Origin: Gracilibacillus suaedae
Lineage (GTDB): Bacteria; Bacillota; Bacilli; Bacillales; Amphibacillaceae
Direction of reading: 5' to 3'
Assembly (NCBI RefSeq): GCF_017599345.1
Contig: NZ_JAGFVL010000051.1
Location: forward strand, 1 to 64,000
Length of the DNA: 64,000 nucleotides
Below, in pieces: positions 31,219-50,694 of this stretch (positions are counted from its first letter, which is position 1; each line of letters starts with the position of its first letter). The position numbers and the translations under genes are program-made. The notes beneath the pieces are model-generated. The model did not search any database. It saw nothing but the letters and a program-made list of their open reading frames with translations, and was not told the DNA's origin.

Positions 31219-31290
31219 CATTATCCCTCCTGCCCTCTTTAACAAGGTGTTAATTATCCATAAGACACCCACTAATGGAAGTCTCCCTCT

Positions 31291-35407: not shown

Positions 35408-37087
35408 ATGGAACAGGCAAAAAATGTTGGATTTAAAGAAAATGTATTAAGTAAATTAGGAGTTAACCCTCAAGATGCTAAAATTTCGCTCACTTATTTC
35501 ACCATTTCATTTGCAACATTATTAATTGGTGGTTTATTAGGGTTAATTCAAGGTTTAGAGCGCGCCGGTCTTTATTCGTTACCGGGAGGATTTAATTATT
35601 ATCAAGTCTTAACCGCACACGGACTTTTATTGTTAGTTGTATTTACTGCTACATTCACAATCGGGTACCAACTTGCCAATCTCTCCCATTCTTTTAATGG
35701 GTTATTACTAAAAGTTCGTAAAATGATATGGATGGGTATCGCCTTTAAGGTTGTTGGTGTTGTGCTTACCGTAACCATGATTGTTTTAGGTGAAGCATCT
35801 GTACTATACACTTTCTACCCACCTTTAGCAGCACACCCAGTATTTTACATCGGATTAGTTCTAATAGTGTTAGGTATTTGGTCTGTAGATTTTGGTGTAT
35901 TTATCAACTATCGTCATTGGCGAAGAGAAAATCCGGGCCAACCAACACCGATTCTAGCTTTCTTTGCAATGGGTGTGTTTGTACTATGGTTTTTCGCAAG
36001 TCTCGGTGTAACTATTGAAGTATTTATGATTATCCCATGGGTATTAGGATGGGTGGAAACGATTAATGTAATGGTAACAAGAACATTATTTTGGTGGTTT
36101 GGTCATACCCTTGTTAACATTTGGTATCTTGTTGCTATCTCTGCATGGTATATTATTGTGCCGAAAATTGCGGGAGGCAAACATTTCAATGAAAAATTAA
36201 TTCGACTAGTGGTTATTTTACTTGTTGTATTAAACATTCCAGGTGGTTTCCACCATCAAATTATTGATCCTGCTATTTCAACATCGATTAAATTCTTACA
36301 CGTCTTCATGAGCCTGTCGATTGCAGTTCCTTCCTTGATGACTGCCTTTGCCATGTTCTATGTATTAGAAAAAGCAGGACGTAAAAAAGGTGGAAAAGGA
36401 TTATTTGGGTGGTTTAAGAAGCTACCATGGGGAGATGTTCGTTTCCTTGCCCCAATGATAGCGATGATCGCCTTTATCCCAGGTGGTGCAGGTGGAATCG
36501 TCAACACTAGTAATCAAATGAACCAAGTCATTCATAATACGATGTGGGTGGTCGGACACTTCCACGTCACCGTGGGGGTATCAGTTGTGCTTACATTCTT
36601 CGGTATTTGTTACTGGTTAATCCCGCACTTATCTAAACGCCAATTAACACCGAAAATGAATAAGATTGGTGTAATTCAAACTTGGATTTGGACGATTGGC
36701 ATGACGATTATGGCTGGTTCCATGCATTTAGCTGGCTTAGTCGGAGATCCTCGTCGTACTTCTGATACAACCTATGCTGGTCATGATACTGCCTTAAGCT
36801 GGTTGCCATATGAGTATGTCTTCGCTACTGGTGCGACCCTGCTTTTAATCGGTGTCATTATTCAGGTGTTTGCCGTGTTTAATATGATGTTCTTTGCTCC
36901 AAAAGGCAAAACAGAATATCCAGTCGCAGAGCCTGAAGATAATCAACCAAAAGTACCGATGTGGACAGAACGTTGGGGATTATGGGCTATTGTCTTACTT
37001 GCTGTTGTTGCAATGGCATACGTGATTCCAATTGTAGACATGATTGTTAATGCACCTCCGGGATCTCCACCGATCAAAACGTGGTAA
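35408..37087 (+). CDS. B-family heme-copper reductase subunit I, b(o/a)3-like, Asn at the active-site Tyr position
   Basis: A 559-residue, about 13-segment catalytic subunit, of the type usually named b(o/a)3-type cytochrome c oxidase subunit 1. All six ligand histidines are present: TAHG, FGHTLV, FHHQI and GHFHV. In O2 reductases of this family the first CuB His is followed four residues later by the cross-linked Tyr (HPIVY); here the sequence is HTLVN. In NO reductases this position is Glu or another residue. NO reduction rather than O2 reduction is therefore a serious possibility. It lies 12 bp after subunit II. Confidence 0.88.
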   Translation: MEQAKNVGFKENVLSKLGVNPQDAKISLTYFTISFATLLIGGLLGLIQGLERAGLYSLPGGFNYYQVLTAHGLLLLVVFTATFTIGYQLANLSHSFNGLLLKVRKMIWMGIAFKVVGVVLTVTMIVLGEASVLYTFYPPLAAHPVFYIGLVLIVLGIWSVDFGVFINYRHWRRENPGQPTPILAFFAMGVFVLWFFASLGVTIEVFMIIPWVLGWVETINVMVTRTLFWWFGHTLVNIWYLVAISAWYIIVPKIAGGKHFNEKLIRLVVILLVVLNIPGGFHHQIIDPAISTSIKFLHVFMSLSIAVPSLMTAFAMFYVLEKAGRKKGGKGLFGWFKKLPWGDVRFLAPMIAMIAFIPGGAGGIVNTSNQMNQVIHNTMWVVGHFHVTVGVSVVLTFFGICYWLIPHLSKRQLTPKMNKIGVIQTWIWTIGMTIMAGSMHLAGLVGDPRRTSDTTYAGHDTALSWLPYEYVFATGATLLLIGVIIQVFAVFNMMFFAPKGKTEYPVAEPEDNQPKVPMWTERWGLWAIVLLAVVAMAYVIPIVDMIVNAPPGSPPIKTW

Positions 37088-37165
37088 CCATTTGATTATA
37101 TGAAGGGAAGGACATTTCATGATTTTCGTATAGATAGTTTGAATAGCTAGATAGGTTCTCAACTC

Positions 37166-37363
37166 TTCCTTGGATATTTTCATTTATCCATGGAAGAGAG
37201 AGTTTTTTCTAGGGAAAGATTTTCTCTTACCGGGATATATGTTCCGCTTCCATGGATATCTTCACTTATCCATGGAAGAGAGAGCTTTTTCCAGGGAACA
37301 GAAATTCTCTTCACGGGATATGTGTTCCACTTCCAGGCATATTTTCACTTATCCTATGAAACA
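37166..37363 (+). repeat. 82-bp tandem hairpin repeat in reductase cluster 1
   Basis: About 2.4 copies of an 82-83 bp unit fill the gap between subunit I and the SCO gene. Unit starts are near 37166, 37249 and 37331. Each full unit holds an inverted repeat with arms CTTCCATGGAT and ATCCATGGAAG around a 10-nt loop, followed by AGAGAG and a T-rich stretch; the first copy has one mismatch. The hairpin plus T-run looks like a terminator. It may reduce expression of the SCO part of the cluster. Short open frames across it are repeat artefacts. Confidence 0.85.
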
Positions 37364-37466
37364 AAACACATAACTAGCGAACCAAAACTTGTATATGGTT
37401 ATGGATGTCTTATCAAATAATTCGTCTTAGTCTCTACTCAATCTATAGCAAAAGGTGGTGCTTGGT

Positions 37467-38093
37467 TTGACTAATCATGAAAGAATCGCAGTTGTTGTTA
37501 TCATACTTTTTGGGTTGGCTGTTTTCTTGGTTGGCACAGATGGCTTTCAAGCTTTTACAACGGAACAAGCACGCACAAACCAATTAATCAAAGAACAACC
37601 TCAAGTACCTAACGTAGTCTTAGAAGATAGCAAAAGTCGTACCTATTCAATGGAGGAGTTACAACAAAATAAATATTTATTTATTACGTTTATGTATACT
37701 AATTGTGCTACTGTCTGTCCACAATTAGAACGTAATATGCAAGAGGTTTATCAGCAATTACCAGTTTCCATGATCAAAAATGACATTCAATTTTTAAGTA
37801 TTAGCTTTGACACCGAACATGATGATCCAGAAACACTTGAAAAATATCGGAGTTATTTTGACAGTGATGGTGAAACATGGCGTATGGCACGAATAAATGA
37901 GCAGCAAGCATTAGATAAGTTACTAGACCAACTTGGTGTTATCGTGATTCCAGATGATTATGGTAATTTCCAACACAATACAGCTTTTTATTTAGTTGAC
38001 AGGGATGGTTATTTAATCGATGTAATGGATTACACCGAAATTGATCAGGCAGTAGAACGAATTAAATCTGTGATCGGAGGAGATTCAGCATGA
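37467..38093 (+). CDS. SCO-family copper chaperone (cluster 1)
   Basis: A 208-residue membrane-anchored thioredoxin-fold protein that delivers copper to the CuA site of subunit II. One N-terminal helix, then the CxxxC motif in TNCATVCPQLE and the distal copper ligand His in FQHNTAFYLVD. TTG eight bases behind AAGGTGG is preferred as start, which aligns with the start of the paralogue in cluster 2. It overlaps the next gene by ATGA. Confidence 0.9.
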   Translation: MTNHERIAVVVIILFGLAVFLVGTDGFQAFTTEQARTNQLIKEQPQVPNVVLEDSKSRTYSMEELQQNKYLFITFMYTNCATVCPQLERNMQEVYQQLPVSMIKNDIQFLSISFDTEHDDPETLEKYRSYFDSDGETWRMARINEQQALDKLLDQLGVIVIPDDYGNFQHNTAFYLVDRDGYLIDVMDYTEIDQAVERIKSVIGGDSA

Positions 38094-38644
38094 AACAGGC
38101 AAAGTATGGTCTTCTATTATTTATTTTTTTAATATTACCTCCTGTTGCTAATTTATTAGAGTCGATTATGATCTTTCATATGCACACACAAATGCCTTTA
38201 TTTGTTTTTGCTGGGTTTCTGATGACACCTTTTTATCACAAGAAGTTTCCAAGCTTTTTCATGAAATGGAATCATTCAGGAATTCCAGGCATCTTGTTAG
38301 TTATCTTAATCTGGTCCTATTGGCAAATTCCTCGGGCAATGGATGATGCTTTAGCCCATTCCTATGTAGAAATCTTTAAGTTTATCAGTCTGCCTTTTTT
38401 AGTAGGTATACCGCTTCGTGATAGCTGGCGAAAGATCAGAAACCATGGACAATTTATTTTTTTGATCTATTTATTTGCTACTTTGATCGTCACTGGTTTT
38501 CTTTATATTTGGGTAGATGAGCAAATTTGCAATAATTATTTAATTATTGAACAACAAACTCTTGGCTGGGGTTCCTTAGCTATGGCTGCCTGTTTGTTAT
38601 TATATTTAGTTTACCGTCAGTTCGAGAATGATGAAGAAGTTTAA
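38090..38644 (+). CDS. Uncharacterised membrane protein linked to heme-copper cluster 1
   Basis: A 184-residue protein with about five hydrophobic segments. It is paralogous to the last gene of cluster 2: both share LES(I/V)M-x2-HM-x2-Q-(M/L)PL, PR-x2-DDAL, KF-x-SLP, SWRKI and QICNNYLI. The His/Met-rich first motif recalls the assembly factor CtaG (caa3 type), so copper insertion is a reasonable guess, not more. Translationally coupled to the SCO gene (ATGA). Its stop codon overlaps that of the convergent ydcF-like gene. Confidence 0.75.
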   Translation: MKQAKYGLLLFIFLILPPVANLLESIMIFHMHTQMPLFVFAGFLMTPFYHKKFPSFFMKWNHSGIPGILLVILIWSYWQIPRAMDDALAHSYVEIFKFISLPFLVGIPLRDSWRKIRNHGQFIFLIYLFATLIVTGFLYIWVDEQICNNYLIIEQQTLGWGSLAMAACLLLYLVYRQFENDEEV

Positions 38645-39207
38645 AATATAAGATATTTATAAAAAGCAGGAAATTCACGAATGGTAGAGTAAATATCTCG
38701 CCATTCAAAATATTCTGCATGTCCACCATATACTTCCTCAAAACCTTGCTGTTTCATAGCCAGTTTAGTCCTAGAAATATGAAAAAATTGCGTAATAACC
38801 GTTATATTGTCTGTTGACAAATCATGTTGTTGAACGATCTCCAAGCTGTTCTCCGCCGTCATTCTCGTATTATAGCCATTATTATCAGTTATGACCGATG
38901 TTTCAGGTACACCTTTTTCGATTAAATATGCTTTCATTACTACTGCTTCATCATACCCTTCTCTCCCTACACCACCACTGACAATAATCGTGTCTAGTAA
39001 ATTATTAATATACAAATTATAAGCTTTATCAAGACGAGCTTGCAGTCTTGGTGAAGGTGTGCCATCTTCATTAACTTTATTACCAAGGACTACACCAACT
39101 TCAGATCGTTCATCTTCATCGGTTAATCCATCAATAATAATAACGATCGTATGTATAACAAAAAAAGTGAATGCCAGTCCAATCAGAATGATAACTATTT
39201 TTCTCAT
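38641..39207 (-). CDS. YdcF/SanA-family DUF218 protein
   Basis: A 188-residue protein with one N-terminal membrane helix and an extracytoplasmic DUF218 domain: VGVVLGNKVNEDGTPSPRLQ, TIIVSGGVGREGYDEA and NGYNTRMTAENSLEI. The family is linked to cell-envelope functions (vancomycin sensitivity in E. coli SanA) but its reaction is unknown. Convergent with cluster 1, separated by zero bases. Confidence 0.87.
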   Translation of the reverse strand: MRKIVIILIGLAFTFFVIHTIVIIIDGLTDEDERSEVGVVLGNKVNEDGTPSPRLQARLDKAYNLYINNLLDTIIVSGGVGREGYDEAVVMKAYLIEKGVPETSVITDNNGYNTRMTAENSLEIVQQHDLSTDNITVITQFFHISRTKLAMKQQGFEEVYGGHAEYFEWRDIYSTIREFPAFYKYLIF

Positions 39208-39314
39208 TATATACTCCTTTCCCTTCCTATCATAACTGAAAAAAGGCTTTTAAACTATCCCTCCATATAGTAAACTTATTTTCAGAGATGAAGAAGACAA
39301 CAGGGGGATACATC

Positions 39315-40100
39315 ATGTTGATGAAAAAATGGTTGATCAGTTTACTTTTTGTTATGATGATACTAGCTGGGTGTGGTACTGCGACGATCGAAGAGGACCA
39401 AGCTGAAACACCAGCAGCGGACAATACTACCGAAGAAACAATGTCTCAGGATAGCGAGACACCTGTAAAAGAGCCTGAAGCTTTAAAAACAGCAAAAGAT
39501 GAAAATTTCGCCACGGCTACTGTCAATCGTGTAGTTGACGGGGATACAGTCCATATTGAATTAGATGGTCAGGAAGAAACTGTAAGACTTTTATTAGTCG
39601 ATACACCTGAAACCAAACACCCTAACCTTCCTGTTCAACCTTATGGTCCGGAAGCATCTGATTTTGCAGTGGAAAAACTGGCAGGAAAAGAAATTCAAAT
39701 CGAATTCGATGGACCAGAACGAGATAACTATGATCGACTTCTTGGCTATATTTGGGTGGATGGGGAAAATTTTAATCAACTATTATTAGAAGAAGGATTA
39801 GCACGCTATGCTTATGTCTATGACCCGCCTTACACTCATCAAGATGAAATGAAGCAAGCAGAACAACGAGCACGCGAAGCAGGGATTGGAATCTGGAGTA
39901 TCGATGGATATGTAACGGAAGATGGCTTCAACCATGAAGATGCTTCTACAGAAAAACAAGAAGAAGAGACTCCAGATGAGGATGTTTATTATGCTAATTG
40001 CTCAGAGGCACGTGAAGCCGGTGTAACTCCTTTGCATGAAGATGATGCTGGGTATGGTAGCCATATGGATGGCGATGGTGATGGTGTAGCTTGTGAGTAG
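39315..40100 (+). CDS. Lipoprotein thermonuclease with excalibur domain
   Basis: A 261-residue surface nuclease. A lipoprotein signal (LAGC) and an acidic linker precede a staphylococcal-nuclease-like domain (about 60-205): the catalytic Arg, Asp and Glu lie in VRLLLVDTPETKHP and the second Arg in NYDRLLGYIW. The C-terminal excalibur domain has the Ca-binding end DGDGDGVACE. It degrades extracellular DNA/RNA near the cell surface, for nutrients or biofilm control. ATG seven bases behind AGGGGG. Confidence 0.9.
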   Translation: MLMKKWLISLLFVMMILAGCGTATIEEDQAETPAADNTTEETMSQDSETPVKEPEALKTAKDENFATATVNRVVDGDTVHIELDGQEETVRLLLVDTPETKHPNLPVQPYGPEASDFAVEKLAGKEIQIEFDGPERDNYDRLLGYIWVDGENFNQLLLEEGLARYAYVYDPPYTHQDEMKQAEQRAREAGIGIWSIDGYVTEDGFNHEDASTEKQEEETPDEDVYYANCSEAREAGVTPLHEDDAGYGSHMDGDGDGVACE

Positions 40101-40109
40101 TGAAGGAAA

Positions 40110-40150
40110 GCCCGAAAGGTCATCAGATGACCTTTCGGGCATATTTTTAT
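40110..40150. terminator. Bidirectional terminator between nuclease and thi operon
   Basis: GCCCGAAAGGTCAT pairs with its complement; T-rich tracts flank it on both sides, TATTTTTAT on the plus strand. Confidence 0.88.
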
Positions 40151-40914
40151 CACTGATTGTATATGCGATAAAATAATTTTGTATTCTGTTCTACTTGGTC
40201 TTTTACATGTTGTATGGGTAACTGTTTAATTTTTGCTATTTGTTTAATCACTTCTTTGATCATATTCGGATGTGTCATTTCCCCCTGAAATCGCCCTTCA
40301 AACGGCCATGGACCATCCGTTTCTACCATCATCAATTCAATAGGGTAGCTTTCCATTAAATCCTGAATCTCTTTTTCATAGAAACAATCTGGTGTCACAG
40401 AGATCATATAATTTGCCTCGATCATCCGCTTAATTGTAGCAGCATCTCCTTTAAACCAATGAAAATGGGCACGCTTTACACCATACCTTGCTAATAAATC
40501 ACATACTAATGCAGCATCATCATACACAGCATGCAATACAATCGGCAAATCATATTGTACAGCGTGGGCCATGAATCGCTCTAATATGTCGATATATGGT
40601 TGAAGATCGAGACTAGGTTCATCTTTTCTTTTGTAAAAAGGAAGTCCGACTTCTCCAATGGCAACTATCTTCTCATGATGCTCATGAATCAAAGTTTCAA
40701 TGTGCGCTATTTCTTGATCAGTCGGGAGTGATTGTTCCGGATGCCAGCCAAACGCTGGATAAACAGTTGGATATTGCTCCGCTAATTGCCAAACTTTTTC
40801 ACAGCTTGTTAGATTACTGGATACTGCAATCATTCCATCCACTTCTAACGTATCCATGATCTTTTTTTGCTCATTGGGCTGATACCAATCCAAGTGAATA
40901 TGTGCATCAATCAT
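40150..40914 (-). CDS. TatD-family metal-dependent hydrolase
   Basis: A 254-residue TIM-barrel hydrolase with the HIHLD start, catalytic Glu in AIGEVGLPFY, His residues in LPIVLHAVYDDA and HFHWFKG, and Asp in METDGPWPFEG. TatD proteins are DNases or proofreading hydrolases; the substrate here is open. It overlaps the thiZ-like gene by eight bases, so it belongs to the thiamine-precursor operon and might process a pyrimidine precursor; that is only an inference from context. Confidence 0.85.
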   Translation of the reverse strand: MIDAHIHLDWYQPNEQKKIMDTLEVDGMIAVSSNLTSCEKVWQLAEQYPTVYPAFGWHPEQSLPTDQEIAHIETLIHEHHEKIVAIGEVGLPFYKRKDEPSLDLQPYIDILERFMAHAVQYDLPIVLHAVYDDAALVCDLLARYGVKRAHFHWFKGDAATIKRMIEANYMISVTPDCFYEKEIQDLMESYPIELMMVETDGPWPFEGRFQGEMTHPNMIKEVIKQIAKIKQLPIQHVKDQVEQNTKLFYRIYNQ

Positions 40915-41650
40915 CTAATACACCTCGTAATGTCTGATAGATTTCCTTCTTTTTTTCGAGGAATTCCTGCGTTAAAGTTAATTCTTCATTTCTCGGACGT
41001 TTGAAATCAATCGTGAATTCCTTGATAACATTGGCAGGCTTAGAACCTAAAACAAGCACTCGGTCTGATAAAAAAATCGCTTCTTCAATATGATGGGTAA
41101 CAAATAAAACAGATGGCCTTTCTTGTTCCCAAATAGTTAATAACCATTTTTGCATTTCTAACCTTGTGAACTCATCTAATGCTGAAAAAGGTTCATCTAA
41201 ACAGATAAAAGATTGTGGGCTTAAAAGACTTCGAACAAACGCAACACGTTGACGCATCCCACCAGATAATTCGTGCGGATATGCGTTGGCATAATCTTTT
41301 AACCCTGCTCTTTCTAACATCTCTAGCGCTTTTTGTTTATCTGGCTTTTGATGTAACTCCACACTCAACACCACATTTTCAAGAACAGTACGCCAAGGAA
41401 AAAGCGATGGGGTTTGTGGCATATAGCTAATCGATCCTTTTTTACCATTGATCGCTTCGTTATCTAGTAGAATCGTTCCGTGATCGGCTTGATAGAGTCC
41501 ACCAATCATATGAAAAATAGTACTTTTCCCACTACCAGACGGTCCGAGTAAAGAAACGAATTCGCCATCGTTCACGCGTAAATCCAAGTGATCAAGAATG
41601 TTTTTTTCACCAAAGCTTTTCGAAATATTTTCGAGTTCTAGTGTGCTCAT
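40907..41650 (-). CDS. thiZ: ABC transporter ATP-binding protein, ThiZ-like
   Basis: A 247-residue ATPase energising uptake of a thiamine pyrimidine precursor. Walker A GPSGSGKST, Q-loop YMPQTPS, signature LSGGMRQR, Walker B FICLDEPFSALD and H-loop THH are all intact. It belongs to the NitT/TauT/SsuB-like subfamily. It abuts the permease gene end to end. Confidence 0.87.
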   Translation of the reverse strand: MSTLELENISKSFGEKNILDHLDLRVNDGEFVSLLGPSGSGKSTIFHMIGGLYQADHGTILLDNEAINGKKGSISYMPQTPSLFPWRTVLENVVLSVELHQKPDKQKALEMLERAGLKDYANAYPHELSGGMRQRVAFVRSLLSPQSFICLDEPFSALDEFTRLEMQKWLLTIWEQERPSVLFVTHHIEEAIFLSDRVLVLGSKPANVIKEFTIDFKRPRNEELTLTQEFLEKKKEIYQTLRGVLDD

Positions 41651-42405
41651 TACTGTTCCTCCTTACCCGGATGCCATTTTAAGATAATTTTTTCCATAGC
41701 AATAATAATCGTGAAAAAAATCAGACATAAGATCATAATAAATAAAATCGCTACAAAAACTCGATCAGTACGGAATGATGATGAGGCTAGCGTCATGTAT
41801 ACACCAATTCCTTTGTTAGCACCTAACCATTCCGAGATAACAGCCCCCATCACACTATAGGTAGCGGAAATTTTCAGTCCGGAAAACATTTGTGGAACTG
41901 CATGAGGCAGTTCCAGCTTAGTGAAAATTTGTTTCTTCGTTGCACCAGCCATTTTCATATAATGAATTAATTCCGGATTTGTATGTCTTAATCCATCGAT
42001 TGTCGATACAGCAACCGGGAAGAAACATACTAATGTAATAATTAATAGTTTAGGCGTAATACCAAATCCAAACCAAATAACAAGTAAAGGTGCGAGTACA
42101 ATAATCGGAATATTTTGCGACATAATCAGCAATGGATAGAGTGCTTCACGGATTTTAGGCAATAGATGAAGCATAACCGCAATGAGTAAGCCTACACTTA
42201 CACCAATGGCAAATCCGCTCACAGTTAAAAATACAGTTGAAAAGATATGATGCTGATAATTACTCCAGCCATTGATCGCCTCTTGCATAATGACAGTTGG
42301 TGCAGGAAGAATCCAGGTCGGAATAGCTAATATCCGACTGGACAATTCCCATATAATTAAAATACTGACGATCACACTAACTGGTAAAAAAGACTTTCTA
42401 AACAT
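41650..42405 (-). CDS. thiX: ABC transporter permease, ThiX-like
   Basis: A 251-residue, six-segment permease with the subfamily EAA motif LIHYMKMAGATKKQIFTKLELPHA. The open frame extends 31 codons further into a 21-bp repeat array, which would give an odd basic KVSRK-type repeat peptide. ATG eight bases behind AGGAG is a much better start and leaves the array non-coding. Partner of ThiZ and ThiY. Confidence 0.87.
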   Translation of the reverse strand: MFRKSFLPVSVIVSILIIWELSSRILAIPTWILPAPTVIMQEAINGWSNYQHHIFSTVFLTVSGFAIGVSVGLLIAVMLHLLPKIREALYPLLIMSQNIPIIVLAPLLVIWFGFGITPKLLIITLVCFFPVAVSTIDGLRHTNPELIHYMKMAGATKKQIFTKLELPHAVPQMFSGLKISATYSVMGAVISEWLGANKGIGVYMTLASSSFRTDRVFVAILFIMILCLIFFTIIIAMEKIILKWHPGKEEQ

Positions 42406-42423
42406 AGAGCATGCTCCTATTGG

Positions 42424-42503
42424 TTTACTGGACACTTTTCGTGATTTATTGGACACTTTTGATCTTTTTCTGGACACTTTCGGAAGTTTTCTGGACACTT
42501 TTC
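42424..42503. repeat. Four-copy 21-bp intergenic repeat
   Basis: TGGACACTTT occurs four times at exact 21-bp spacing (42429, 42450, 42471, 42492), each followed by a variable 11-bp part. It fills the space between the thiamine-binding gene and the ThiX-like gene. On the minus strand the core is AAAGTGTCCA. Confidence 0.9.
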
Positions 42504-42507
42504 AAAT

Positions 42508-42801
42508 TTAACGATATTTCTTCGTCAATTCACTCATGGAAGCTTCATGATCTTTTTGTGAATAAATCTTCACTTGTGAGATAACACTTGGGCAATCTAA
42601 TTCATGCATACGTTGATTCATGTTTTCGATAACAGATAATAATGCTGCTAGATCGCCCTCCATTGTGGTTTCTAGTGGATTAACTTGATATTTGACACCT
42701 GATTCTTCAATAATTTTGATTGCTTCATCAACGAAAGGTATTGAATCTTCCCCTTTAGGTGTCTTAGGAATGATTTGGATACTAACTAATGCTTCAGCCA
42801 T
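42508..42801 (-). CDS. MTH1187/YkoF-type thiamine-binding protein
   Basis: A 97-residue protein of the DUF77/thiamine-binding family: VSIQIIPKTPKGEDSIPFVD, NPLETTMEGDL and PSVISQVKIY. These small cytoplasmic ferredoxin-fold proteins bind thiamine or HMP. It lies between the ThiY and ThiX genes, a common arrangement in bacilli. Confidence 0.87.
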   Translation of the reverse strand: MAEALVSIQIIPKTPKGEDSIPFVDEAIKIIEESGVKYQVNPLETTMEGDLAALLSVIENMNQRMHELDCPSVISQVKIYSQKDHEASMSELTKKYR

Positions 42802-42814
42802 TCATAACCCTCCA

Positions 42815-43789
42815 TTATTCTGGTAAAAATTCGTTTGTAAATGCTACGTTGACTTCTAGTTCTCGTTCTAACAGGTCATTTTCAAACATGAATTCTGCAT
42901 AATTGCTCCAAACTTCTTCTGATTGTTCGCCCCATTTATCCGCGTCGTCTTGGTACCTTGGTGATATCCATTCCTGACTGGCATGAACTAATTCTTCGTC
43001 TAAATCTGGCTGTGCTTCTAATAAAATATCAGCTGCTTCTTCTGGATTGTCTATCGCATCCTGATAACCACGACTAACTGCAGCCATAAATTTTTTGATT
43101 GTTTCCGGATTTTCTTCGATCATCTCTTCATTTGTTGTAATAACCGGTGTATAGTAGTCTAGTTTTTCTGAATAGTCCGTGAGATAGATCATATCAATTT
43201 CTTTACCGCGAAGTTCTGCTTCAATTCCAGTCCAACCATAGTAAATCCAAGCAAAGTCTACATCACGCTCTACTGCTGTAAAAAAGTCGGTATTGCCCAT
43301 ATTCACAATCTCGACATCTTCGACAGATGCCTCTTCCTGTTTCATTAATGCATCGATAACTGCTGATTCAACAGGAGCCCCCCAACCACCATACGTTTTT
43401 CCGGCAAAATCAGCAGGTGATGTAATTTCTTTTTCTACTGGTGCTGCAAATCCCGAGGTATTGTGTTGGATTACTGCAGCAATTGAAACGAGCGGAATAT
43501 CTTGAGTACGTGCTTCTGTTACTTGTTCCTGATAGCTGATCCCAAATTCCGCTTGCCCTGAAGCTACAGTCTGATCTGCTCCTGCTTCACCTGGCATGAC
43601 TATATCCACATCTAATCCTTCATCTTCGAAATATTCTTTTGATTCCGCAACATAAAGGCCGGTATGATTAGTATTAGGCGTCCAATCTAATACTAAGGTA
43701 ACTTCTTCCAATTCTGCTGGTGTGCTTTCTTCGTTCCCGCAACCCGCGAGTATAAACATACCAATTATTGCAAATAAAAACTTTTTCAT
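42815..43789 (-). CDS. thiY: Thiamine-pyrimidine (HMP/formylaminopyrimidine) binding lipoprotein, ThiY-like
   Basis: A 324-residue lipoprotein (lipobox LAGC) of the NMT1/THI5-like family. The substrate-site signature VLDWTPNTNHTGLYVA is at about 34-49, and YGGWGAPVESAVID follows near 125. It binds a thiamine pyrimidine precursor outside the cell for the ThiX/ThiZ transporter. It is the first gene of the operon, directly after a TPP riboswitch. Confidence 0.9.
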   Translation of the reverse strand: MKKFLFAIIGMFILAGCGNEESTPAELEEVTLVLDWTPNTNHTGLYVAESKEYFEDEGLDVDIVMPGEAGADQTVASGQAEFGISYQEQVTEARTQDIPLVSIAAVIQHNTSGFAAPVEKEITSPADFAGKTYGGWGAPVESAVIDALMKQEEASVEDVEIVNMGNTDFFTAVERDVDFAWIYYGWTGIEAELRGKEIDMIYLTDYSEKLDYYTPVITTNEEMIEENPETIKKFMAAVSRGYQDAIDNPEEAADILLEAQPDLDEELVHASQEWISPRYQDDADKWGEQSEEVWSNYAEFMFENDLLERELEVNVAFTNEFLPE

Positions 43790-43833
43790 GATGAATCCCC
43801 CTATTTTATCTTTTTAGAGGAACATATAAGAAA

Positions 43834-43860
43834 GCGCCCTAGACTTATAGCCTAGGGCGC
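43834..43860 (-). terminator. Expression-platform terminator of the TPP riboswitch
   Basis: GCGCCCTAGG pairs with its complement around a short loop, followed on the minus strand by TTTCTTAT. It lies between the riboswitch aptamer and thiY, so TPP binding most likely causes premature termination. Confidence 0.75.
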
Positions 43861-43879
43861 ATATAGATAGTTAATCTCA

Positions 43880-43975
43880 TATGTTCCCTACGCTGGTGCT
43901 AACCAGATCAGGTTCTAAGGGTCAGCATCTTACGGATACAGTCTCAACCGGCAACACCGGTCCCCCTACATTTCA
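43880..43975 (-). ncRNA. TPP riboswitch (THI box)
   Basis: On the minus strand the element contains AGGGGGACCGG, the J2/3 segment TTGAGA, and the hallmark tail ACCTGATCTGGTTAGCACCA followed by GCGTAGGGAA. This is the thi-box aptamer that binds thiamine pyrophosphate and controls the thiY operon. P3 is the CCGGTGTTGCCGG hairpin. The TTGAGA instead of CTGAGA is a minor variation. Confidence 0.93.
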
Positions 43976-44035
43976 TATAATATTGCTAACTTCTACTTTG
44001 ACATAATTCGTGTTTTTCTTCAAGTTTTGACCATT

Positions 44036-44073
44036 AAATAAACGAACCTCTAATGAAAGAGATTCGTTTATTT
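44036..44073. terminator. Terminator of wrbA
   Basis: AAATAAACGAA and TTCGTTTATTT form an 11-bp stem extended by AGAGATT/AATCTCT-like pairing, immediately downstream of wrbA. Confidence 0.8.
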
Positions 44074-44077
44074 ATTA

Positions 44078-44677
44078 TTATCCATGAATTTTACTTGCTA
44101 CTTCAACGACACGTTTTGCCTGATGTTTAACTGCATCTTGAACATTTTCAACCATGGAGCCGTCTTCCTGGCTTTGGGTAACACTTGTTCCATAAGGGTT
44201 ACCGCCAGCGGCAAAAATGGAATCATTAGAATACCCTGGAGGAACGATGATAGCACCCCAATGCATCATAGATGTATAAAGGCTTAACACAGTTGCTTCC
44301 TGTCCACCATGGGGATTAGAAGCTGAAGTCATGGCACTTACTACTTTGTTTACAGTCTTACCTGATGCCCATAGACCACCTTGTGTGTCAATAAATTGTT
44401 TCATTTGGGAAGCAACATTTCCAAAACGTGTTGGCGTGCTAAAGATAATGGCATCTGCCCATTCTAAGTCTTCAGTTGTTGCAACAGGAACATCTTTTGT
44501 TTCTTCCACGTGCTTTTGCCAGCCTGGATTCTGAGCAATCGCTTCTTTTGGTGCTGTTTCAGCAACTCGTACCACTCTTACTTCTGCTCCTGATTCTTTT
44601 ACCGCGTCTGCTGCCCAGTTTGCTAATTGATAGTTTATACCTGTAGAACTATAATAAACTACTGCCACTTTTACCAT
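44078..44677 (-). CDS. wrbA: NAD(P)H:quinone oxidoreductase WrbA
   Basis: A 199-residue flavodoxin-like FMN enzyme reducing quinones by two electrons, protecting against redox cycling. FMN site YYSSTGINYQLA at the N-terminus, then IIFSTPTRFGNVASQMKQFID and SAMTSASNPHGGQEAT. Two MhqR-like inverted repeats sit upstream, matching the role in quinone stress. Monocistronic. Confidence 0.92.
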   Translation of the reverse strand: MVKVAVVYYSSTGINYQLANWAADAVKESGAEVRVVRVAETAPKEAIAQNPGWQKHVEETKDVPVATTEDLEWADAIIFSTPTRFGNVASQMKQFIDTQGGLWASGKTVNKVVSAMTSASNPHGGQEATVLSLYTSMMHWGAIIVPPGYSNDSIFAAGGNPYGTSVTQSQEDGSMVENVQDAVKHQAKRVVEVASKIHG

Positions 44678-44744
44678 ATAGATAAAACTCCTTTTCTTGT
44701 TAGATATTATTTGGTTTGCCCAATTTGATAAAATGTATACTTTT

Positions 44745-44800
44745 ATCTCGAAGATGAGATGCTTTTAATTTATCACACAATTATCTCAGTTTCAAGATAA
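44745..44800. promoter_or_regulatory. Two MhqR-like operators upstream of wrbA
   Basis: ATCTCGAAGATGAGAT (44745-44760) has perfect ATCTC/GAGAT arms and resembles the MhqR operator TATCTCGAATTCGAGATA of B. subtilis. TTATCTCAGTTTCAAGATAA (44781-44800) is a second, less perfect copy 36 bp away. A quinone-sensing MarR-type repressor is predicted; none is encoded beside it. Confidence 0.6.
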
Positions 44801-44805
44801 ATAAA

Positions 44806-44835
44806 CTAAAAAAACATGGAGCGACTCTCCATGTT
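44806..44835 (-). terminator. Terminator of the DUF3221/DUF4362 lipoprotein gene
   Basis: AACATGGAG and CTCCATGTT form the stem; seven T follow on the minus strand. It overlaps the stop region of the gene. Confidence 0.85.
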
Positions 44836-45812
44836 TAATCAAATGTTAACCCTGCCTCAACCAAAGTATTGTAGCGAATCACATTTCCTGCTTCCTGATA
44901 ATCAAAATGAATGATTGCTTGCTTACCATATAAAATAATTTCCCCTTCTGGTGCCATCATGGTCATCGCCATTACAGATTGTGGTGTACCTTCACGTATT
45001 TTTGTTATAATCTCTTTTTTTTCGGATTCGTCAGTTGTATCCAATACAACCTCCTCACCTACGATTACCTCAACACGGTGATAGATGTCCTCAGGAACTA
45101 TCATATCTGCAAAGGGCAGATTTGCTATAACTAATCCTCCAGTGTCATTATCGCAACCTGTTAGTTCGAACATAATGTTTTGATCCTCTGTTAAGTAATA
45201 TTCTAATTGTTGACAGGATACTTCGCTTATTGTTTCTACTTCAACAAAGTTATCTTGAGTTGCATCTTCTTTTACGATATACTCTCCATTCTGAAAAATA
45301 TAATGATCAAACACCGAGCCACCTTCAGCAGTAATGTTTACTCCTCGCATGATGGCTTCTTCATTGTTTTCTGTTTTTTGTATAAATTGTTCTAAAGTGA
45401 CTAAGTTTACCGTTTCATCAGGTGCTATGACCATATCATGTTCTTCATCAACGATCCGTTTTATTGCAACTGCACTACTTTGTCCTGGATAGGATTCTGC
45501 AACTGCACCATGGGTGACTTGAATTTTTTCGCCTCTCATAAGTGAGTCAGCCATGCTATCTTCTATATTGTCGAGGCTGAAACTAATTGCATCCCCTGCC
45601 TCTTCCTGCTGTTCTGGATGGAACTCAGATATGGATGGATCCAATCGATTCTCGACAACTAATACACGATTATCTCCTATGTTAGCGACATAACCTTCCA
45701 TCACATTTTGCACATCATTATTTTGATCCGCTTGCATTTTATTCCCGTTATCCAAATTTGTACCACAAGCAGTTACGAATAATATCGCTATAAGACCGAG
45801 TACATATTTCAA
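44835..45812 (-). CDS. Lipoprotein with DUF3221 and DUF4362 domains
   Basis: A 325-residue lipoprotein (lipobox VTAC) of unknown function. A DUF3221-type domain (EGYVANIGDNRVLVVENR to GAVAESYPGQSSAVAIKRI, about 35-120) is followed by a DUF4362-type domain (LEQFIQKTENNEEAIMRGVN to FELTGC, about 135-215) and a further 100 residues without a match I recognise. Two cysteines in DUF4362 could pair. TTG eight bases after GGGAGG is used as start. Confidence 0.72.
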   Translation of the reverse strand: MKYVLGLIAILFVTACGTNLDNGNKMQADQNNDVQNVMEGYVANIGDNRVLVVENRLDPSISEFHPEQQEEAGDAISFSLDNIEDSMADSLMRGEKIQVTHGAVAESYPGQSSAVAIKRIVDEEHDMVIAPDETVNLVTLEQFIQKTENNEEAIMRGVNITAEGGSVFDHYIFQNGEYIVKEDATQDNFVEVETISEVSCQQLEYYLTEDQNIMFELTGCDNDTGGLVIANLPFADMIVPEDIYHRVEVIVGEEVVLDTTDESEKKEIITKIREGTPQSVMAMTMMAPEGEIILYGKQAIIHFDYQEAGNVIRYNTLVEAGLTFD

Positions 45813-45868
45813 TACAATCGCCTCCCTTTTTCTATTAGTCGTCATCCTTTGGAAAAGGTTACATCAAA

Positions 45869-45900
45869 AAAAGAATGGACAATCAAACGTCCATTCTTTT
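45869..45900. terminator. Terminator of the ars operon
   Basis: A 12-bp perfect stem, AAAAGAATGGAC and complement, with an 8-nt loop and T-runs both ways, overlapping the arsC stop. Confidence 0.88.
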
Positions 45901-46318
45901 ATTCTCCTGTTTCAGCGAAATGTTTTACCCGTTCCCCAATCTCATCACGTACTCGACGGAAAACTTCCCACTTCTCTTCGTCTGTTCCTTCTGCTTTGGC
46001 TGGGTCATCAAATCCCCAATGTTCATTGCGGATACCAAATGGGATAACCGGGCACTTATCACGTGCATCGCCACATAACGTTACAACCATATTCGAATTT
46101 CGCAGTATTTCCAAATCAATTTTGTCAGATGTTTGTTTAGAAATATCTATACCTACTTCATTCATCGCTTTGACAGCGTTTGGATTTAAACCATGTGTTT
46201 CAATTCCAGCACTGTAAACATTCCAGTAATCACCTAAATATTGTTTCCCCCATCCTTCTGCCATTTGACTGCGGCAAGAGTTACCTGTACATAAAAAATA
46301 AATAGTTTTTTTCGCCAT
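45899..46318 (-). CDS. arsC: Thioredoxin-coupled arsenate reductase
   Basis: A 139-residue low-molecular-weight phosphatase-fold arsenate reductase. The P-loop is [15 protein letters not shown] with nucleophile Cys10, and the shuttle cysteines are in [11 protein letters not shown] (about 82 and 89). It reduces arsenate to arsenite for export by ArsB. Last gene of arsRBC. Confidence 0.95.
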
Positions 46319-46336
46319 TTTAGATTCCTCCTATAG

Positions 46337-47632
46337 TTAAAATAATAATAGTGTCAGATATAGACCCACTAATGTAATAAATAAAATGGGTATCGTAAGA
46401 ATAATTCCTGTCTTAAAATAAGTACCCCATGAGATTTTCACACCTTTTTGGGATAGAACATGTAACCATAACAGTGTTGCTAACGAACCGATCGGAGTGA
46501 TTTTTGGACCTAAGTCAGAACCTATTACATTCGCATAGACCAGCGCTTCGCGTACAACTCCAGATGTATTTGTTTCGGCAATTGCCAGTGCATCAATCAT
46601 GACGGTAGGCATATTATTCATCACGGAAGATAAAATTGCTGCTATAAATCCCATGGCAACAGTAGCACTGAACAGACCTTGATCTGCACTCCATTGAATA
46701 AGTCCTGCCAAAACATCAGTAAGTCCGGCGTTACGAAGACCATAGACAACCACATACATCCCGATCGAGAAAAAGACAATTTCCCATGGTGCTACTTTGA
46801 CTACTGCTGTTGTGTTAACAGCAGAGCTGTTTCGTGCCATCATTAAGAAAAAGATTGCAATAATACCAGCAATAATTGAAACTGGTACAGCAATAAATTC
46901 ACTGACAAAATAGCCAACTAATAATATTGCAAGGACATACCATGACAGATGGAACATTTTAATATCTTTTAATGCTTCAGCTGGCTGTTTTAAATGATCG
47001 ATCTGATAGTTTTTCGGAATATTTTTTCTAAAGTATAAATACAATACCGTAATCGTAGCAATGATCGAAAATATATTGGGAATGACCATTCTCGATGCGT
47101 ATTCGACAAAACCTATTTCGAAAAAATCTGCTGAAACAATGTTCACTAAGTTACTAACAATCAATGGCAATGAGGTGGTATCAGCAATAAAACCGCTCGC
47201 CATGATGAAAGGAAAGACCATTTTCTCTTTAAATTGCAAATTACGAACCATAGCCAGAACGATTGGTGTTAAGATCAAAGCTGCTCCATCATTTGCGAAA
47301 AAGGCTGCTACTAAGGCACCTAGTAAACTGACATAAATAAACATTTTAATACCATGACCTTTTGCGAGACGGGCCATATGTAAGGCAGCCCACTCAAAAA
47401 AGCCGATTTCATCTAAGATTAACGAAATAATGATAATTGCCACAAATGCTAATGTTGCATTCCAGACGATTCCAGTTACTTCTAAGACATCCTGAAATCC
47501 GACGACGCCAACAAGCAGTGCCACTATTGCACCGCCGATTGCCGACCAACCAATCGATAAATTTTTAGGCTGCCAGATCACAAGTACTAATGTCACTAAA
47601 AAAATAAGAATAGCTAAAATTACGTCAAACAA
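46337..47632 (-). CDS. arsB: Arsenite efflux protein ArsB
   Basis: A 431-residue, about 12-segment arsenite/H+ antiporter of the ArsB/NhaD group: [20 protein letters not shown] near residue 110 and [15 protein letters not shown] near 335. TTG start eight bases behind AGGGGG. Between arsR and arsC; no ArsA or ACR3 present. Confidence 0.92.
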
Positions 47633-47647
47633 AGTATTGTCCCCCTA

Positions 47648-47995
47648 CTAACAACAAGTAATCCTTGCTCCGTTTTTCTCTAATTCTATTAACTTTTCTT
47701 CCTGACTAGGTAATTGCTCTAAAATAGACTTCATGAATACGAACCATTCACTTTCATGATTTAGAGAATAAAATACCCATTGCCCTTTCCGTTCTTCCTT
47801 GATTAAGCCTACATCTCGTAATTTACGCAAATGCTGACTGATTGATGGTTGACTCATTTGAAAAATTTCAACAAATTCGCAAACACAACAAGTCTGGTTT
47901 TCGATTAATTTCATCATGGTAAGCCTTGTTTTATCACCTAACACCTTAAAAATTGGTGCGGCTTTTTCAATTTGAAATTCCGTTTTGGTCGTCAT
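47648..47995 (-). CDS. arsR: ArsR/SmtB-family repressor
   Basis: A 115-residue winged-helix repressor. As(III) would bind at cysteines in ENQTCCVCEFVE on helix alpha-3, in front of the recognition helix SQPSISQHLRKL. A terminal Cys pair (TCC) may add to metal binding. It controls the arsRBC operon that it heads. Confidence 0.93.
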   Translation of the reverse strand: MTTKTEFQIEKAAPIFKVLGDKTRLTMMKLIENQTCCVCEFVEIFQMSQPSISQHLRKLRDVGLIKEERKGQWVFYSLNHESEWFVFMKSILEQLPSQEEKLIELEKNGARITCC

Positions 47996-48019
47996 TCTTA
48001 TGCCCCCTTCACATTTGTA

Positions 48020-48045
48020 TATAAATATATAACAATATACTTATA
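48020..48045. promoter_or_regulatory. ArsR operator candidate
   Basis: TATAAGTATAT and ATATATTTATA form an 11-4-11 inverted repeat with one mismatch, 25 bp upstream of the arsR start. It is AT-rich, so chance is not excluded. Confidence 0.5.
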
Positions 48046-48074
48046 TGCGCAATGCGTAAATCTCACATTTACAA

Positions 48075-48110
48075 AAAATTAATAAAGGAAGAGGCTATTC
48101 TGCCTCTTCC
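48075..48110 (-). terminator. Terminator of reductase cluster 2
   Basis: GGAAGAGGC pairs with GCCTCTTCC over a 6-nt loop, followed on the minus strand by TTTATTAATTTTTT; it overlaps the stop codon of the last gene. Confidence 0.85.
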
Positions 48111-48640
48111 CCCAATCCTCTAAAAAAAACAATATACAATAAATTAAGCAATAATACCAGCACACTGGACAGGTACACTGCCCCAACTATGTGTTGCTCG
48201 TTAATCAAGTAATTATTACAAATTTGCACAGGTGTTCCGAGATACAGCCATGCCAATAAACCGAACATGGATAAAAAATTGATATAAAGAAAACTCTTGA
48301 ATATCCCCCCTATTTTTCGCCAACTATTCTTCCATAAAAATCCAAGCAGTGGAAGTGATGCAAACTTCCAAATTTCTAGTTCTATCTCTGTTAAAGCATC
48401 ATCCAATGACCGCGGTAGCATCCAGAAAATTAAAACCCCCACTGCAAGTAACATGCCAGCTACACCATTATCATTCCATTTTTCTAGAAAACGCCAATTA
48501 CGATTGCCATGTAATAAAACACCCACTAAAATGAGCAAAGGTAATTGAAGAAACATATGCAGTACCATTACCGATTCAAGACTTTCTCTAATAACAGGGG
48601 CTAGTAAGAGAATAAAAAATAAGATGGCCAGTTTCATCAT
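48095..48640 (-). CDS. Uncharacterised membrane protein linked to heme-copper cluster 2
   Basis: A 181-residue paralogue of the last gene of cluster 1, sharing LESVM-x2-HM-x2-Q-LPL, PRSLDDAL, KFASLP, SWRKI and QICNNYLI, with about five membrane segments. It is coupled to the SCO gene by an ATGA overlap, exactly as in cluster 1. The conserved pairing suggests an assembly partner of SCO and the CuA/CuB enzyme, possibly CtaG-like. Function unproven. Confidence 0.75.
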   Translation of the reverse strand: MMKLAILFFILLLAPVIRESLESVMVLHMFLQLPLLILVGVLLHGNRNWRFLEKWNDNGVAGMLLAVGVLIFWMLPRSLDDALTEIELEIWKFASLPLLGFLWKNSWRKIGGIFKSFLYINFLSMFGLLAWLYLGTPVQICNNYLINEQHIVGAVYLSSVLVLLLNLLYIVFFRGLGEEAE

Positions 48641-49263
48641 ATCTCCCTCTCTAACCTTCCAACGACATATTCTGAAGCAGCTTTAATATCAGTATAATCT
48701 AGAACATTCTCTAAATATCCATCCTTATTAACAAAGTAAAAAGCAGAATTGTGGGAAAAGCCATCGTACTTATCCGGGATAACAATCACCCCAAAAGCGT
48801 CTAATAAAGATTCTAGCTGCAGCTGATCTGGAATCCTTGCCATTCGCCATGTTTCTCCATCACTATGAAAGTATTGTCTGTAGTTTTCTAATGTTTCTGG
48901 ATCATCTCGTTCTGGATCAAAACTTATCGTTAGAAAGATGAGCTCTTCCCCAATATAAGATGGGGGAATGCTTTGATATACCTCGGCAAAATTTCTTTCT
49001 AATTCTGGGCAAACTGTCGTACAAGCTGTATAAACAAAGGTTATAAACACATTTTTCCCACGAAACGCCTCCATCGTATACGTTCGTTCTTTGCTATCTT
49101 CCAATATCACCTCAGGAAACTTCGGTTTCGTCTCTATCAAATTGTTCTTTCGAGCTGTTTCTGCTGTAAAAGCAGTAAATCCATCTGTTCCAATAAACCA
49201 CATCCAAACAACTAAAATAATCGATACAATAATAGCTATTCTATTACACCATTTTTTCGTCAT
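48637..49263 (-). CDS. SCO-family copper chaperone (cluster 2)
   Basis: A 208-residue SCO protein with one N-terminal helix, CxxxC in TACTTVCPELE and the copper-ligand His in FSHNSAFYFVN. It is a clear paralogue of the cluster 1 SCO (shared GTDGFTAFTAE/GTDGFQAFTTE and DGETWRMARI). Predicted to load copper on subunit II. Confidence 0.9.
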   Translation of the reverse strand: MTKKWCNRIAIIVSIILVVWMWFIGTDGFTAFTAETARKNNLIETKPKFPEVILEDSKERTYTMEAFRGKNVFITFVYTACTTVCPELERNFAEVYQSIPPSYIGEELIFLTISFDPERDDPETLENYRQYFHSDGETWRMARIPDQLQLESLLDAFGVIVIPDKYDGFSHNSAFYFVNKDGYLENVLDYTDIKAASEYVVGRLEREI

Positions 49264-49278
49264 ATTGATCGTTCCTTT

Positions 49279-50694
49279 TTACGTTTCGTTGCATACATAG
49301 CGAACAAAATGAACGATAAATAAAGTAGTAGCAATTACTAGAAACACACCGGCGATTCCTCCAAATAAGGCCGGCCCCATCCATTCAGGAGTATGTGTTG
49401 CCCAACGTCTAGGTGTACTTAATGCACCTGAAACTAAAAATTGAACACTAACAGCAGCCATTGTTACGATATAACTAAAAAAGGCAATCCAGTCTAATTT
49501 CGTTATTTTTAGACCACCATCTACTTTTGCTAAATAATACATAAAGGCAAAAATCATCACAACTGCACCAAGCCCCATATACATATGGAAATGTCCCGGT
49601 ACCCATTTGGTATTATGCATAACATGGTTCACAACAATCGTCGCATCTATGATTGCAGGAACGACTCCAACTGTCCAGCCAAACATGGATAAAAAGGCTA
49701 ACCCGGATGACATATCCCACTTAATTCCTGATTTATATACAATCATCAGCGTACCATAAGCGGTGACAATTAATACCGGTAATCCATTTGCATAAGAGAA
49801 CACCTGTCCAATTATTAACATCCATTTGGGCATCACGGAATCCATTAACATGTGGTGTGTATAAATCATTAACGTGAATATGGTTGACATGGACCATGCA
49901 ATTAGAAAGACTTTATTCGCTTTCCATGATCTATTTGTATATTTAGCTAACAGTTCATAGACGACAATAACACTCATATAAATAATCGAATTAGCAAAAA
50001 CATGACCAAATGCATACGTTAAATTTTTTGCTAACAGTGGATCAAAGGTAAATGCTGGATTAATGGTATGAATGATGTTCATCATAATCACAGTTGCTCC
50101 GGCAATCAATGCTGTTACATTAACGATCGTTACCATTGTACCAGCAATAATCGCAGGTTCTGGTGCATCTTTTTCAGCCTTTTTACCGGCAATCACATCC
50201 CAGCCTAAACCTTTTGCAAGACTGCCTTTCTTCCTAATGATTGCCCGGCCAGTATCAATGAATAATAGTAAAAAGCCAATACCAATAATCAACATACCAA
50301 ATAGATACAACAATGCACCAATTATTCCCCATGCTTTGGCAGATAAGGTTGGTAGTGGATACAAAAACGTCCAGGCACTTGCATAATCAAAGGAGAAAAC
50401 ACCAATAATGACAAGCACTAGTCCGATTAAAAATAATATCAAGTTAGCCTTAAAAATTCTCTTTGATAATGTTACATGTTGACTTAAAAAATACCACATC
50501 ACAGCAGATGCTGCTAATGCAGCCGCACCTATCATTCCTGTCCCATGAATGGTCATGAATTGATAAAATGTCGGCGGACTAAGAGATAAACCACCACCTT
50601 GAGCAAGTAACATTAAAATACCAAATACCATCATCAATAAAATCACTATTCCGCCAATGACTAAATAATTTTTAATTAATCGGTTATGGACCAT
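49279..50694 (-). CDS. Heme-copper reductase subunit I (cluster 2), Asn at the active-site Tyr position
   Basis: A 471-residue, about 12-segment catalytic subunit, shorter than and only distantly similar to that of cluster 1. The six ligand His are in TIHGTG, FGHVFA, THHML and GHFHM. Four residues after the first CuB His stands Asn (HVFAN) where O2 reductases have Tyr and classical NO reductases Glu. Automatic tools will probably call it a cbb3- or ba3-type oxidase; the active site argues for an NO reductase-like member of the B-type lineage. ATG behind AGAAGGAG. Confidence 0.85.
   Translation of the reverse strand: MVHNRLIKNYLVIGGIVILLMMVFGILMLLAQGGGLSLSPPTFYQFMTIHGTGMIGAAALAASAVMWYFLSQHVTLSKRIFKANLILFLIGLVLVIIGVFSFDYASAWTFLYPLPTLSAKAWGIIGALLYLFGMLIIGIGFLLLFIDTGRAIIRKKGSLAKGLGWDVIAGKKAEKDAPEPAIIAGTMVTIVNVTALIAGATVIMMNIIHTINPAFTFDPLLAKNLTYAFGHVFANSIIYMSVIVVYELLAKYTNRSWKANKVFLIAWSMSTIFTLMIYTHHMLMDSVMPKWMLIIGQVFSYANGLPVLIVTAYGTLMIVYKSGIKWDMSSGLAFLSMFGWTVGVVPAIIDATIVVNHVMHNTKWVPGHFHMYMGLGAVVMIFAFMYYLAKVDGGLKITKLDWIAFFSYIVTMAAVSVQFLVSGALSTPRRWATHTPEWMGPALFGGIAGVFLVIATTLFIVHFVRYVCNET

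Follow-up and report, generated by a model that had tools for sequence, protein, structure and literature searches.

Two operons for heme-copper enzymes with CuA subunits

The window analysed here, 64,000 nucleotides (64 kb) of Gracilibacillus suaedae (contig NZ_JAGFVL010000051.1, positions 1 to 64,000), carries two operons for heme-copper enzymes that lie 12 kb apart and appear to encode nitric oxide (NO) reductases (NORs) of two families, bNOR (also called CuA-NOR) and sNOR (Table 1). Subunit I of the bNOR operon (559 amino acids, plus strand; hereafter enzyme 1) contains WWFGHTLVNIWYL. Subunit I of the sNOR operon (enzyme 2) contains YAFGHVFANSIIY and is encoded on the minus strand, the plus-strand reading of that interval having many stops. 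Both matched COX1 (PF00115), with 268.8 and 163.1 bits against a cut-off of 34.8, and each is 94-95% identical to its counterpart in G. lacisalsi, the species near which this genome (4.65 Mb, 64 contigs) falls. We found five COX1 proteins in the genome: two of the A family (HPEVY), one of the B family with the tyrosine (HPLVY), and enzymes 1 and 2. With NCBIfam the last two gave only matches far under the cut-offs, CtaD/CoxA being the best sub-threshold match, and a preliminary description of this DNA was thus right that standard annotation misses both.

We found that the bNOR operon has a CuA-bearing subunit II, a small subunit IIa, a SCO copper-insertion protein and a membrane protein. Short open reading frames (ORFs) resembling IIa also lie upstream in the relatives L037-L039, L041 and L042, and one of 46 amino acids is present in Schinkia (Bacillus) azotoformans (L197). 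The sNOR operon has a SCO protein, a membrane protein and a CuA-bearing subunit II whose N terminus shows two helices by eye. Enzyme 2 is short (471 amino acids), and its structure model has 12 long helices; the 36 best matches of the model in PDB, down to an E value of 0.017, were all heme-copper oxidases. The mean predicted local distance difference test score (pLDDT) was 70.6 and fell below 50 at residues 284-307 and 348-366, which adjoin the active site, where the model is too weak to judge the site.

Table 1. Features of the two operons and of their surroundings (positions in the window).
Feature	Position	Strand	Evidence and remarks
Fnr-type box TGTGA-N6-TCACT	34637-34652	+	Pattern scan; upstream of bNOR operon
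bNOR small subunit IIa (CbaC-like), 41 amino acids	34713-34838	+	Read from sequence; one hydrophobic stretch
bNOR subunit II (CbaB), 153 amino acids	34934-35395	+	Profile matches (query started one codon later); CuA ligands CNEYCGAGHQAM
bNOR subunit I (CbaA)	35408-37087	+	COX1 profile, alignment, tree; HTLVN
SCO1/SenC copper-insertion protein, bNOR operon	37455-38093	+	PF02630
Membrane protein, bNOR operon	38090-38644	+	No Pfam family; CbaD position, as in PMC3475470
Membrane protein, sNOR operon	48095-48640	-	Weak DUF1404 match, below cut-off; ORF in matching place in S. azotoformans L135
SCO1/SenC copper-insertion protein, sNOR operon	48637-49263	-	PF02630
sNOR subunit I	49279-50694	-	COX1 profile, alignment, tree; HVFAN, also IYTHH (Tyr278 just before the CuB His pair)
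sNOR subunit II	50711-51235	-	Profile matches; start taken as ATG at 51235; two N-terminal hydrophobic stretches (by eye); CuA ligands CLEYCGLAHHAM
Fnr-type box CGTGA-N6-TCACA	51296-51311	-	Upstream of sNOR operon; conserved in G. lacisalsi and genome G034
Fnr-type box	31318-31333	-	Pattern scan; between DUF2249 gene and ctaA
DUF2249 gene	30964-31332	-	As listed; likely start further in
ctaA	31411-32247	+	COX15-CtaA
Lipoprotein-like ORF	34160-34582	-	Divergent from bNOR operon; complete CuA-type ligand string CSVPCGAGHEDM
Polytopic membrane protein, 419 amino acids	29513-30772	-	No Pfam match
Transposase-like ORF	629-1912	-	IS110 type by eye
Arsenic-like set (ArsR, ArsB-like transporter, ArsC)	45899-47995	-	By eye

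Active-site residues and shifted tyrosines

The residues of the active site were compared in an alignment of 204 translated rows, with columns numbered as in Thermus ba3; four spurious frames were dropped, and window duplicates, long neighbourhood loci and a split sNOR (L190/L191) were excluded. Rows were fetched for 46 of the 59 bNOR-level matches, 30 of the 31 sNOR match rows and 80 of 97 relatives, and removal of identical rows left 91 sNOR, 53 bNOR, 32 other B-family and 2 A-family rows. In both enzymes the six ligand columns (H72, H233, H282, H283, H384 and H386) are all His and the column of the cross-linked tyrosine, Tyr237, holds Asn (Asn235 of enzyme 2), in agreement with what had been seen before in the bare sequence.

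We found Asn237 with Tyr280 in 111/111 sNOR rows and Asn237 with Gly280 in 55/55 bNOR rows (window rows and near-copies counted), Tyr237 with Gly280 in 32/32 other B-family rows, and Tyr237 with Trp280 in the genome's own two A-family rows; as columns 237 and 280 define the groups of distinct rows, the counts are evidence in so far as they match the clades and the search by which a row was retrieved. The Asn is not a chance change because it is invariant across both NOR groups while Tyr is invariant in the other rows. Seven plasmid-borne relatives were fetched and six gave a full row. Those of Ruegeria pomeroyi and Thermomicrobium roseum have Asn237, Tyr241, Tyr248 and Tyr280, which indicates that the sNOR signature spans phyla; the relatives from Caballeronia, Deinococcus, Haloarcula and Natrialba have Tyr237.

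Helix VI of B-family oxidases has tyrosines at columns 237, 244 and 248, and ideal-helix arithmetic places 237, 240/241, 244 and 248 on one face. Of the K-path columns (244, 248, 309, 312 and 315), both NORs keep Tyr248 and have lost Tyr244 (Thr in 18/53 bNOR rows). All 53 distinct bNOR rows have Tyr240, where 32/32 oxidases have Leu, and all 91 distinct sNOR rows have Tyr241, Tyr280 and Tyr388, columns that are never Tyr in the oxidases. The sNOR Tyr280, in helix VII, sits two residues before the CuB His-His pair. Further along, bNOR keeps S309 and T312 and has Ala for T315; in 90/91 sNOR rows S309 is Val and T315 is Gly, and the column of T312 adjoins a gap. Columns were called diagnostic of bNOR if one residue made up at least 95% of the bNOR rows and a different one at least 90% of the oxidase rows, and 11 of the 14 such columns fall in 234-305, round the active-site helices VI-VIII. 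A tyrosine at column 87 was considered as a feature common to both NORs and was not upheld for sNOR, for which a second alignment gives Val or Ile.

We tentatively suggest that bNOR and sNOR may have re-plumbed helix VI in parallel, with a moved tyrosine, rather than simple loss of one, setting NO versus O2 chemistry and proton supply, and that the second tyrosine of sNOR may give it O2 reductase activity; we regard this as possible, with the odds somewhat against it. The shifted-tyrosine pattern is offered as a prediction and as a contribution of the present analysis, with no claim that it is absent from print. In A-family oxidases Trp272, next to the CuB His pair, has a redox role, of which our literature search found no confirmation among the matches listed.

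Clades and family assignment

A careful tree was built from 66 rows, after 70 had been picked, three identical ones removed and Thermus ba3 excluded because a quick tree had warned of joined long branches. The 22 bNOR rows and the 26 sNOR rows each form one side of a branch with 100/100 support, which upholds the earlier view that the two enzymes belong to different lineages. The bNOR clade includes enzyme 1 and S. azotoformans L197, whose subunits I are 63% identical; the place of L197 (105563-107230) fits that given for cbaA1 (contig42 105527-107233) in PMC3475470. The sNOR clade includes enzyme 2 and S. azotoformans L135, the type II copy, with subunits I 60% identical.

In the quick tree bNOR was placed among Tyr-bearing B-family oxidases. 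An approximately unbiased (AU) test did not reject bNOR and sNOR as one clade (p-AU 0.152), so one loss of the tyrosine or two are both possible; the tree itself has the Asn arising independently in the two groups, an origin that we do not claim. Two B-family oxidases, L080 (genome G110) and L081 (G112), have GHALVY, in which the Tyr is kept and the Pro after the CuB His has become Ala. L080 resembles an intermediate: its column 87 is Tyr, as in bNOR, and the quick tree makes it sister to bNOR (support 92).

Our data suggest that enzyme 1 is the catalytic subunit of a bNOR, an assignment as good as sequence can make it, and enzyme 2 is probably the catalytic subunit of an sNOR; that the published "qCuANOR type II" equals sNOR is our reading of the clade and of published lists. 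Both families have been described before, and for one of them there is biochemical proof from another organism. PMC3475470 (2012) described a pair of this kind with Tyr-to-Asn changes in B. azotoformans, as qCuANOR type I and type II, and Table A4 of PMC8756737 gives N for sNOR and CuANor and Glu for cNOR and qNOR. PMC11388526 (2024) surveyed genomes with both, reporting bNOR and sNOR in Bacillota and qNOR, bNOR and sNOR together in 26 genomes, and counts sNOR as proposed, not characterised. The pair described here consists of additional members; the preliminary observation was right and its reading largely so. We take Silicibacter and Ruegeria pomeroyi to be one organism. Silicibacter is listed among sNOR holders in PMC8756737. 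Our literature search found no publication joining Gracilibacillus with "nitric oxide reductase".

Fnr-type boxes

The pattern TGTGA-N6-TCAC is of a type that we take to be the Bacillus Fnr consensus, although the literature that we checked did not confirm it for TGTGA. It occurs at 22 distinct places in the genome (29 rows), three of them in the window (31319, 34637 and 51296). One box lies 85 bases before the narG match, and six precede genes matching NirB, the NarK family, MoaA, NrdD, the RIC/ScdA iron-sulfur repair protein and a U32 peptidase; NirB, NarK and NrdD were read as fragments at the edge of the fetched stretch and are under the full-length NCBIfam cut-offs. The other twelve comprise six inside long ORFs and six before genes without a clear link or before none. 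A CRP/FNR-family protein (L210) ends in CENCPIEVC, presumably the C-terminal cysteine pattern of Bacillus Fnr.

To locate boxes in related loci we allowed one free base at each end and, for bNOR, scanned 500-1200 bases upstream of subunit I. A box was found in 28/28 loci of the family (29 were given; L049 is too short) and in 6/7 loci from named genomes, at least two of which repeat genomes of the first set. The controls had a box in 2/11 Tyr-oxidase operons and in 84/1540 random 700-base stretches. These statistics are a contribution of the present analysis, for which we do not claim absence from print, and the regulatory role of the box is a prediction. The box is also a marker that can be checked and that tells bNOR apart from the sister oxidases.

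Gene content and co-occurrence

Profile searches found narG over the cut-off in this genome and no match to nirK. There was no nirS match in the 17 genomes of the genus and no nosZ match over the cut-off in any of them, the four matches in this genome being the CuA domains of the subunits II. None of the five COX1 proteins of this genome is a qNOR or cNOR. With bNOR presence taken as a match above 700 bits, 8 of the 17 genus genomes have bNOR, 8 have narG over the cut-off and 7 have both. Among 159 genomes of the family bNOR occurs in 59, sNOR in 30 and both in 29, so that 29/30 sNOR genomes have bNOR as compared with 59/159 overall. A thin class sample of 398 genomes had sNOR in three, this one included. 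Both NORs lie on one contig in 12 genomes; their starts are less than 75 kb apart in 8 of these and 14-16 kb apart in three Gracilibacillus.

Neighbouring genes and variant loci

The lipoprotein-like ORF next to the bNOR operon has no subunit II membrane helix. When about 1.5 kb upstream was scanned, a CuA-type lipoprotein ORF was present in 8/37 bNOR loci, all from Gracilibacillus (L192 and L038 are one genome). It is possibly a copper carrier or electron donor. The 419-residue polytopic protein neighbours the DUF2249 gene and its box; relatives of it occur in 5/17 genus genomes, all five of which have bNOR.

Several sNOR loci differ from the one described here. In ten loci, from Neobacillus, Cytobacillus and kin, no SCO-like ORF was seen by eye in the 1.8 kb that follow subunit I on its strand (L146, L147, L148, L154, L158, L163, L170, L171, L177 and L179; the sequence of L147 stops short of 1.8 kb). 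An apparent "CuA-less sNOR clade" in Neobacillus and Cytobacillus was an artefact of the search pattern (C.EYC then G or A), since the subunits II examined have CLEYCS with the ligands kept; the exception, in N. bataviensis L163, is cut off, and a truncation of that kind in N. bataviensis is already in PMC3475470. The sNOR subunit I is in two pieces in G049:C7:180580-181976 (stops) and G396:C4:175436-176835 (split match), and the bNOR match of G049 is intact. In Ruegeria pomeroyi (L239), Thermomicrobium roseum (L240) and Parasedimentitalea marina (L241) the sNOR operons are on plasmids with a formate/nitrite transporter gene, and those of Ruegeria and Parasedimentitalea have a divergent Rrf2-type regulator. 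Elsewhere in the window are the transposase-like ORF, near its start, and the arsenic-like set, between the two NOR operons.

Proposed function and alternatives

From the sequences, clades, operons, boxes and gene inventory we infer the activity, substrate, electron donor and regulation of the two enzymes. In each, the CuA domain of the cognate subunit II would take up electrons and pass them over the low-spin heme to the heme/CuB site, where two NO would be joined to N2O; Asn would replace the cross-linked Tyr that O2 reductases require. In bNOR the K-type proton path of the B family would be partly retained, and we expect the enzyme to be electrogenic, as is that of B. azotoformans; PMC5826923 describes CuANOR as electrogenic. 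In sNOR, whose NO reductase activity is proposed, more of that path would be lost. An Fnr-type regulator would induce both at low oxygen along with nitrate reductase and NirB. The host, in which we found neither an NO-forming nitrite reductase nor an N2O reductase, would be a nitrate ammonifier whose NOR pair clears NO leaking from nitrite reduction and releases N2O, and bNOR would also respire NO. Such a physiology has a precedent, because B. vireti is described in PMC4719734 as an ammonium producer that forms N2O via CuANor, and removal of NO as N2O during nitrate ammonification is the likely role here. We consider it very probable that a bNOR and an sNOR, switched by Fnr and removing NO in a nitrate ammonifier, together explain the locus best.

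Several points weigh against this explanation. The scan found no box ahead of the bNOR operon of S. azotoformans itself. Of 80 sNOR loci 74 were usable, and only 26 of those have a box, with 40/1600 for random 290-base stretches. The presumed Fnr reaches 42.7 bits with NCBIfam, far short of the Fnr cut-off of 228. Within the window, with one mismatch allowed, the pattern is no commoner than in shuffled sequence (15 matches, shuffle mean 10.4), and genome-wide it is not enriched over a reversed control (29 versus 40 matches), so the signal of the box lies in its position.

Two further points concern sNOR and carry the alternative in which it is mainly a high-affinity O2 reductase, or uses both gases, with the helix VII tyrosine supplying an electron or proton in place of the helix VI tyrosine. 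That tyrosine is invariant (91/91 distinct rows, and also Ruegeria pomeroyi and Thermomicrobium) and could stand in for the missing one; the same column is Gly in all bNOR and B-family oxidase rows and Trp in 2/2 A-family rows. PMC6967387 argues that the Nitrosomonas sNOR, whose transcription rises under O2 limitation, may be a terminal oxidase, the role that its authors favour. However, that paper also refers to indirect evidence that Nitrococcus reduces NO, the sNOR operons of Ruegeria and Thermomicrobium include a formate/nitrite transporter gene, and the sNOR described here lies near bNOR and is preceded by a box of the kind found before the nitrate genes. We think it unlikely that sNOR is mainly an O2 reductase. 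The preliminary claim that both enzymes are NO reductase-like and not terminal oxidases is well supported for enzyme 1, as an ortholog of the B. azotoformans CuA-NOR (63% identity, same operon). It is less firm for enzyme 2, which appears to belong to the proposed sNOR family: because of the invariant Tyr before its CuB His-His pair, the refuting case named with that claim, a Tyr contributed by a different helix, may apply to it, and it may have a terminal-oxidase role.

A second possibility is that both NORs mainly clear NO with some oxygen present and do not serve anaerobic respiration. PMC11388526 includes the suggestion that bNOR can carry out aerobic NO reduction in micro-oxic settings, and the genome also keeps two A-family oxidases and one Tyr-bearing B-family oxidase. 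The boxes in common with narG, nirB and the anaerobic ribonucleotide reductase gene point instead to low-oxygen expression, and we consider this possibility quite improbable. A third reading, that the two are O2 reductases of the usual ba3 type in which the Tyr-to-Asn change is harmless or comes from a sequencing error, has next to no chance of being right: their B-family relatives, CuA subunits II and sub-threshold CtaD/CoxA matches would fit, but Asn is invariant in both clades, across several phyla for sNOR, and Tyr in the other B-family rows, including one from this genome, and such clade-wide conservation refutes an error.

The bNOR-sNOR explanation has two consequences. KEGG names bNOR and sNOR coxA, cytochrome c oxidase (PMC11388526), and NCBIfam missed both here, so that counts of N2O-forming capacity in such bacteria can come out too low. 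The shifted tyrosines are targets for point mutations that would probe how a heme-copper enzyme comes to reduce NO and not O2.

Comparison with known systems

The function proposed for both enzymes is the NO reduction of cNOR and qNOR, in which, however, the site is occupied by Glu (PMC8756737 Table A4). Enzymes 1 and 2 have Asn there and their nearest relatives are B-family, which places them outside cNOR/qNOR. With the B-family ba3 and b(o/a)3 O2 reductases they have the six His and a CuA subunit II in common, and enzyme 1 is 49% identical to the genome's own copy; unlike those oxidases, both lack the cross-linked Tyr237 and Tyr244.

The closest likeness of the bNOR is to type I qCuANOR of B. 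azotoformans (BAZO_06394-06409), with the same clade, the same IIa-II-I-SCO-membrane protein operon, Asn for Tyr and the CuA ligands. It differs in the divergent CuA-type lipoprotein gene and the box upstream of the Gracilibacillus operon, the box being the element that was not found at the azotoformans operon. The sNOR resembles type II qCuANOR of B. azotoformans (contig40), at the identity given above, and the sNOR of Ruegeria pomeroyi, whose subunit I is 46% identical. The order II-I-SCO-membrane/hypothetical protein, the Asn and the tyrosines at columns 241, 248 and 280 are common to all three; the Ruegeria operon has a nitrite transporter and an Rrf2 gene alongside, which the present one lacks. 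In contrast to the sNOR operons of both azotoformans and Ruegeria, the one described here stands 12 kb from a bNOR operon.

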